DNA of 44,071 bases from Candidatus Neomarinimicrobiota bacterium (GTDB lineage Bacteria; Fidelibacterota; Marinisomatia; Marinisomatales; S15-B10), in contig DTTI01000022.1 of the NCBI GenBank assembly GCA_012964825.1, positions 1 to 44,071 on the forward strand, read 5' to 3'. This document shows, in pieces, positions 42,400-43,266 of the stretch. The translations under genes and the position numbers were made by a program. Position 1 is the stretch's first letter. The number at the start of each line of letters is the position of its first letter. The notes below the pieces were generated by a model. It ran no database searches. It had not been told where the DNA came from and saw only the letters and a list, made by a program, of their open reading frames with translations.

Positions 42400-43266
42400 T
42401 TGTTTTCTCATTTAATTTTGGTCGTGAGGCTTATATTTCCCTTCCTGGTCTTAGCTAATTTATTGATGGCCCAGACCTATTCAGTCGGCGATACTGTCAA
42501 GGATTTTTCTAAGTCTATTTGTTCCAACGGTGAGGGAGATCTTTCCTTTTACAGCTACAACGGTGCTGAGAATGGTGGAGACAACTTTGTCATCTGGATC
42601 AACTTCTTCACCTCCTGGTGAACCTCCTGCCAGGCGGAGGCTCCGACCACTGAAACGATCTACCAAGAATTCAAAGATGACGGATTGATTATGCTTGGTG
42701 CCGGTTCTGATTGGGGGCAACCGTACAACTGCAGTCAGTGGGCCAATAAATTTGATCTAACCTATCCACTTTTGGACGATTCAGGGTCCAACCTCTTTTT
42801 TGACTTTGCCTGGGACGGCAGTTCACAAGCTGGTAACCAGTACTATATCCCCATGAATATTATTATTGATCACAATATGGTGGTGAGGTATCGTGCCTAT
42901 GGCTTTAATGAAAATGGAGTAAAAAACGAGATTGAAGATTTAATAGGAGAGATGAAATCGGCTTCAATTGTAGGGGAAGAGACAAAGCACATACAACCTT
43001 CATTCATCACGCTCCACTCTGCCTATCCCAATCCCTTCAACCCGTGGACCAACATAAGCTTTACTCTTACTGAAGCAACCGTTACTGATATTGTTATTTA
43101 CAACAGCCTCGGAAAAGAAGTAGATAAGCTGACCGGTAGGACTCTTTTTGATATCGGAACCCACACAATCCGCTGGGATGCTGAGGATGTCCCATCCGGT
43201 GTTTATCTAATCCGGCTGGAAACGCCCCTGGCATCCGCCACCACAAAAGCGATCCTGATTAAATAA
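42400..43266 (+). CDS. Selenocysteine-containing thioredoxin-like protein with type IX sorting domain (TGA read through)
   Basis: 288 residues if TGA at 42619-42621 is read as selenocysteine. Signal peptide, then a TlpA/ResA-like redoxin fold: NFVIWINFFTSW precedes the TGA, followed by TSCQAEAPT. TGA falls exactly at the first Cys of the CxxC redox motif (selenocysteine 74, Cys77), giving UxxC. The frame then continues without a stop for 214 codons: ETIYQEFKDDGLIMLGAGSD, FAWDGSSQAG, YIPMNIIIDHNMVVRYRAYG, and a C-terminal sorting domain with AYPNPFNPWTN and GVYLIRLE. Other genes here use TGA as stop, so the code is not altered. Start is uncertain: TTG 42400 used, GTG 42424 (MRLIFPFLVLANLLMAQ) is also plausible. 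It should be a secreted or surface thiol/selenol oxidoreductase. A sequencing error or pseudogene is the alternative. Confidence 0.75.
42622..42652 (+). promoter_or_regulatory. Candidate bacterial SECIS element directly after the in-frame TGA
   Basis: Two alternative hairpins lie immediately downstream of the TGA. CGGA/TCCG (42635-42645) has loop GGC, whose GG is 18-19 bases after the TGA. As I recall, the E. coli fdhF SECIS has its apical GG at almost the same distance. The other is CCTCC/GGAGG (42623-42640), which can form an inner GC/GC with a bulged T. The stem of the first is only 4 bp, so the fold is unproven. Confidence 0.45.

Follow-up and report, generated by a model that had tools for sequence, protein, structure and literature searches.

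A predicted T9SS-exported selenoprotein with a UxxC active site in a bacterium of the phylum Fidelibacterota

We analyzed a stretch of 44,071 nucleotides, referred to here as the window, from contig DTTI01000022.1 of a Candidatus Neomarinimicrobiota bacterium (assembly GCA_012964825.1). Near the end of the window lies a reading frame that is broken by a single TGA, and the question is whether this codon terminates the protein or is read as selenocysteine (Sec). Between position 42400 and the TAA at 43264-43266, the TGA at 42619-42621 is the only stop, and 214 open codons follow it in the same frame. In an alignment with Cys-containing relatives, this TGA occupied the column of the first Cys of the WCxxC motif, just as the initial annotation had described it. 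That annotation placed the gene at 42400-43266. The end of the gene stands, but the start probably does not: TTG 42400 is a possible start, and GTG 42424 is the more likely one, because MRLIFPFLVLANLLMAQ is in register with the start of the relative L016. The N-terminus was hydrophobic in all of the aligned homologues. The features of the gene are listed in Table 1.

Table 1. Features of the candidate selenoprotein gene and their positions in the window.
Feature	Position	Strand	Remarks
Selenoprotein gene (predicted)	42424..43266	+	single TGA in frame, read as Sec; 280 residues with the GTG start; stop TAA
Signal peptide MRLIFPFLVLANLLMAQ	42424..42474	+	putative, from inspection of the sequence
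AhpC-TSA/TlpA-ResA-like thioredoxin domain	42484..42891	+	residues 21-156; 47 bits; ResA fold match
TGA = Sec (predicted), first position of UxxC	42619..42621	+	W-U-T-S-C motif spans 42616-42630
bSECIS-type hairpin core CGGA-GGC-UCCG	42635..42645	+	apical loop 42639-42641, 17 nt after TGA
C-terminal type A T9SS sorting domain (YPNPFNP...)	43024..43254	+	residues 201-277 of the GTG-start protein

The encoded protein is predicted to be a TlpA/ResA-like thiol-disulfide oxidoreductase. In Pfam it matched AhpC-TSA (PF00578) with 47 bits (cut-off 26), Redoxin with 40.9 bits (cut-off 26.6) and Por_Secre_tail (PF18962) with 36.7 bits (cut-off 27), and in NCBIfam it matched the T9SS type A sorting domain TIGR04183 with 36.9 bits (cut-off 23). 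The earlier statement that the 214 open codons carry thioredoxin and YPNPFNP homology was thus confirmed. A structure model of the protein had a pLDDT of 78 and a pTM of 0.56, with unreliable packing of the domains; its thioredoxin part matched ResA and DipZ, with a TMt of about 0.8 to ResA. The model and the PF00578 match together give the window protein a thioredoxin fold with a UxxC active site. Outside the UxxC pair, C33 and C103 (42520-42522 and 42730-42732, GTG numbering) were invariant, and these two residues possibly form a structural disulfide.

Where such an enzyme would act depends on the two ends of the protein, that is, on the putative signal peptide and the C-terminal sorting domain. 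Of the 20 members of the group that were scanned, 18 had the sorting domain, its positions PNPFN, G, W, SG and K were invariant in the alignment, and the T9SS genes for SprA (638 bits), PorU (687 bits) and PorV (196 bits) were all present in the host genome. These findings argue against Sec insertion without T9SS export, in which case the enzyme would be periplasmic like ResA, TlpA or DsbE and its C-terminal domain a vestige or an outer-membrane anchor. The ResA, TlpA and DsbE homologues work on the outer face of the cytoplasmic membrane, and this site of action favors a periplasmic enzyme, as does the high abundance of the YPNPFNP domain in the phylum, its role in export being putative here. 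We consider a periplasmic location unlikely, and we infer that the protein is exported by T9SS and has a redox function.

We then sought relatives of the gene in 61 near genomes and in 245 genomes of the phylum, and took the DNA for a selection of them. The 94 distinct relatives collected have TGA (70), Cys (18), Ser (5) or Asn (1) at the same codon, so that both Cys and TGA occur in homologues at this position, as had been anticipated; the ratio is no census, because the selection favored TGA matches. G003 and G007, two independent genomes of the same family as the window, have the same TGA. The downstream frame was intact in the relatives whether they had TGA or Cys, and the decay of this frame in close relatives, for which we looked, was not seen. 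In pairs that were unsaturated at synonymous sites, dN/dS downstream of the TGA was 0.02-0.20, and the single higher value (0.37) came from the tail of the divergent relative L018. These values, well below 1, indicate that purifying selection acts downstream of the TGA. Because the same codon is TGA in 70 relatives and the downstream dN/dS is low, the TGA in this frame is not a chance occurrence. One relative lies on contig SCKK01000042.1 of Candidatus Neomarinimicrobiota (now Fidelibacterota, FCB group). Beyond the phylum, the contig search was anchored on WC and covers Cys forms; the relatives in other phyla are therefore mostly Cys forms.

If the TGA is read as Sec, a SECIS hairpin is to be looked for behind it. 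Of the 70 TGA genes, 50 have a 3-nt loop exactly 17 nt after the TGA, closed by 4 bp or more; the 24 Cys, Ser and Asn members all lack this hairpin. When codons were resampled under the same protein, the expected number of such hairpins was 1.0, with a maximum of 4 in 200 runs. The loops were GGC, GGT, GTT, GTC or GAT; that is, G always stood first, which is a requirement of the published bSECIS model (PMC13188914). In the fourth pair of the stem, base 2 of codon 5 downstream of the TGA faces base 3 of codon 8, which encodes Pro, and the two bases covaried synonymously in 41 of 43 cases: the Pro codon was CCG when a C stood in the stem at 14 nt past the TGA (33/35), and CCA when a T stood there, in Val or Leu codons (8/8). 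The more distant members of class f16 did not have the hairpin at this distance, but in several of them a hairpin with wider spacing was present, its G-first loop lying at 22-29 nt.

The hairpin of the window gene has 4 clean base pairs. In free RNA it had an energy of -6.6 kcal/mol against -9.7 kcal/mol for a competing CCUCC/GGAGG stem, and its pair probability was 0.01. It is therefore not the free-RNA optimum, and its energy stands beside the value of -7.5 kcal/mol or lower for the MFE in the bSECIS model (PMC13188914). The same 51 nt of the close relatives L015 and L016 gave -16.4 and -13.9 kcal/mol, respectively. The competing stem begins 3 nt after the TGA, and its strand would be covered by a ribosome paused at the TGA. 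For this reason, and because the stem is 7 bp long in the sister copies of G003 and G007, we judge that the window hairpin is probably still used. An Rfam scan of the region yielded no RNA family and only two chance matches, and when the 69 nt that surround and follow the TGA were simply folded, the stability was ordinary (z 0.21). The informative RNA test here is only the comparative hairpin test, not plain folding.

The insertion of Sec also requires its machinery, and all four genes that we searched for were present in the host genome, a draft assembly of 84 contigs with a completeness of 97.6%. The genome has selA (459 bits) directly followed by selB (353 bits), a tRNA-Sec gene, selC (63.9 bits), with the anticodon loop CTTCAAA and hence the anticodon TCA, and selD (404 bits). 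The selD gene has an in-frame TGA of its own, so that SelD itself would contain Sec (GAGUACK), and two further peroxiredoxin-type genes have an in-frame TGA in a TPGUT motif. By eye, GUU was seen at or in the apical loop of hairpins 3' of all three of these TGA codons, at a distance of about 16-17 nt in the two peroxiredoxin genes and 33 nt in selD. Among the genomes that contain TGA members (58), selB was found in 47; most of the other 11 are incomplete, and 5 of the 11 have selA.

These results bear on the remaining explanations of the TGA. If it were a genuine stop, the gene would be a pseudogene or would give a short truncated product, and the fact that nearly all relatives have a stronger hairpin than the window gene fits this explanation. 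On the other hand, the frame conserved over 214 codons with low dN/dS, the TGA at the same codon in the 70 relatives, the synonymous covariation that maintains the hairpin and the complete Sec machinery all speak against it, and we regard a genuine stop as very improbable. It is still harder to believe that the codon is a sequencing or assembly error for TGT or TGC; the assembly is a draft, but the same TGA occurs in G003, G007 and dozens more genomes, and most TGA relatives carry a Sec-specific hairpin that the Cys relatives do not have. A genome-wide reassignment of TGA to a standard amino acid, for which the open frame alone would speak, was rejected as next to inconceivable, because 10 of the 29 window genes end in TGA, which therefore still functions as a stop in this organism, and because selA, selB, selC and selD are all present.

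We therefore return to Sec insertion at TGA 42619 as the reading that the comparative sequence data favor; that is, the window gene most probably encodes a selenoprotein. Judging by comparison, SelB would bring Sec-tRNA-Sec to this TGA with the hairpin at 42635-42645 as a guide, and translation would continue to 43266. The signal peptide would then lead the protein across the inner membrane, and the type A C-terminal domain would direct it to T9SS, that is, to the SprA/PorV translocon and the PorU sortase, and so to the cell surface or the medium. Judging from its family, the enzyme would there most likely carry out disulfide reduction or exchange, or peroxide reduction, on extracytoplasmic substrates.

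To follow the history of the Sec codon, a tree was computed without the active-site residue. It contained at least 6 changes between Sec and non-Sec on well-supported branches. On the nearest branch, the window gene, G003 and G007 have TGA, and G008 has Cys and no hairpin. In independent pairs the hairpin accompanied Sec in 4-5 of 6 and showed the opposite in none (sign test, p about 0.06), the pairs being too few for significance. These data suggest that Sec and Cys have been interchanged repeatedly in this phylum-wide protein group.

Several other observations were made among the relatives. L018, from genome G004, retains the TGA and does not have the canonical hairpin. A search of G004 for selB found none, and selA is present there, which weakens a reading of this genome as a case of Sec loss. 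L026, L031, L035, L183, L184 and L038 form one well-supported branch with Ser or Asn in place of Sec or Cys and without the hairpin, which suggests that the usual redox pair has been lost in them. L137 (G107:C8:21049-21516) has two successive TGA codons within the motif (WUUPC). L134, L033, L132, L135, L142, L145, L147 and L148 represent a second thioredoxin-like gene with TGA, of about 660-715 aa, with the motif WUPVCAPEF and a hairpin TCCGGA-GTT-TTCGGA at +17; a sorting motif is visible in several of them, and the gene adjoins, upstream, the Cys member of the group (the TGA member in G037). Family f16 forms clusters of two to four members, with TGA in most, at L179 (G153:C44) and L181 (G168:C51), and also in G155:C13 and G156:C37. 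Two IMG/VR contigs, L118 and L119, matched this group, and L118 encodes a TGA member; they may be bacterial DNA that was placed among viral sequences.

UxxC selenoproteins that have a thioredoxin fold and PF00578 have long been known (PMC1088965, PMC2398784, PMC13188914). The Prx-like/TlpA-like UxxC entries (PF00578, PF08534, cd02966; PMC13188914, Table 1; Sargasso survey, PMC1088965; GOS survey, PMC2398784) share with the window protein the thioredoxin fold, the AhpC-TSA/Redoxin assignment and Sec as the first residue of UxxC; likewise, a bSECIS lies directly downstream and Cys homologues exist. These entries name no sorting domain, whereas in the window protein the redox domain lies between a signal peptide and a T9SS sorting domain of type A. 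The ResA-like WAxxUGC selenoprotein NF041054 also has a ResA-like domain and Sec near a conserved W, but it matched the window protein only weakly (16.5 bits, cut-off 300), its motif is UGC instead of UxxC, and no sorting domain is named for it. NF045500, the Omp28-related selenoprotein, is GOS_C, a marine thioredoxin-fold UxxC protein (PMC2398784). It gave no match to the window protein at E<=1, and its best match to the 500-aa relatives was 126.9 bits (cut-off 200), with its C-terminal region matching their linker; their active-site domain was not the best match. ResA of Bacillus (PDB 4nmu, 1st9) and the C-terminal domain of DipZ (2hyx) share the fold and the active-site position, but they have Cys instead of Sec and no T9SS domain. 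In the literature searched, which included few subscription papers, we came across no account of a protein that combines Sec with a sorting domain for T9SS. Within this scope, the claim of the initial annotation that the combination is undescribed was upheld: the fold, the UxxC motif and the partly similar GOS_C were known, and Sec together with a T9SS sorting domain appears to be new.

In conclusion, we hold with considerable confidence to the whole account of Sec insertion, a TlpA/ResA-like UxxC enzyme, T9SS export and repeated interchange of Sec and Cys. We lean, less firmly, toward the broader view that the Fidelibacterota have an extracellular selenium redox system made up of a large group of repeatedly duplicated UxxC selenoenzymes, exported by T9SS to the surface, in which Sec was kept or lost by lineage. 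If the account is true, selenocysteine chemistry takes place at the external cell surface in an uncultured phylum that is widespread, and in Fidelibacterota the Sec codon is where automatic annotation cuts many secreted redox enzymes in two. The synonymous covariation of the hairpin would be a clean case of RNA structure limiting codon choice, and the repeated changes between Sec and Cys, in most of which the hairpin was also gained or lost, would offer a natural series showing when Sec pays outside the cell.
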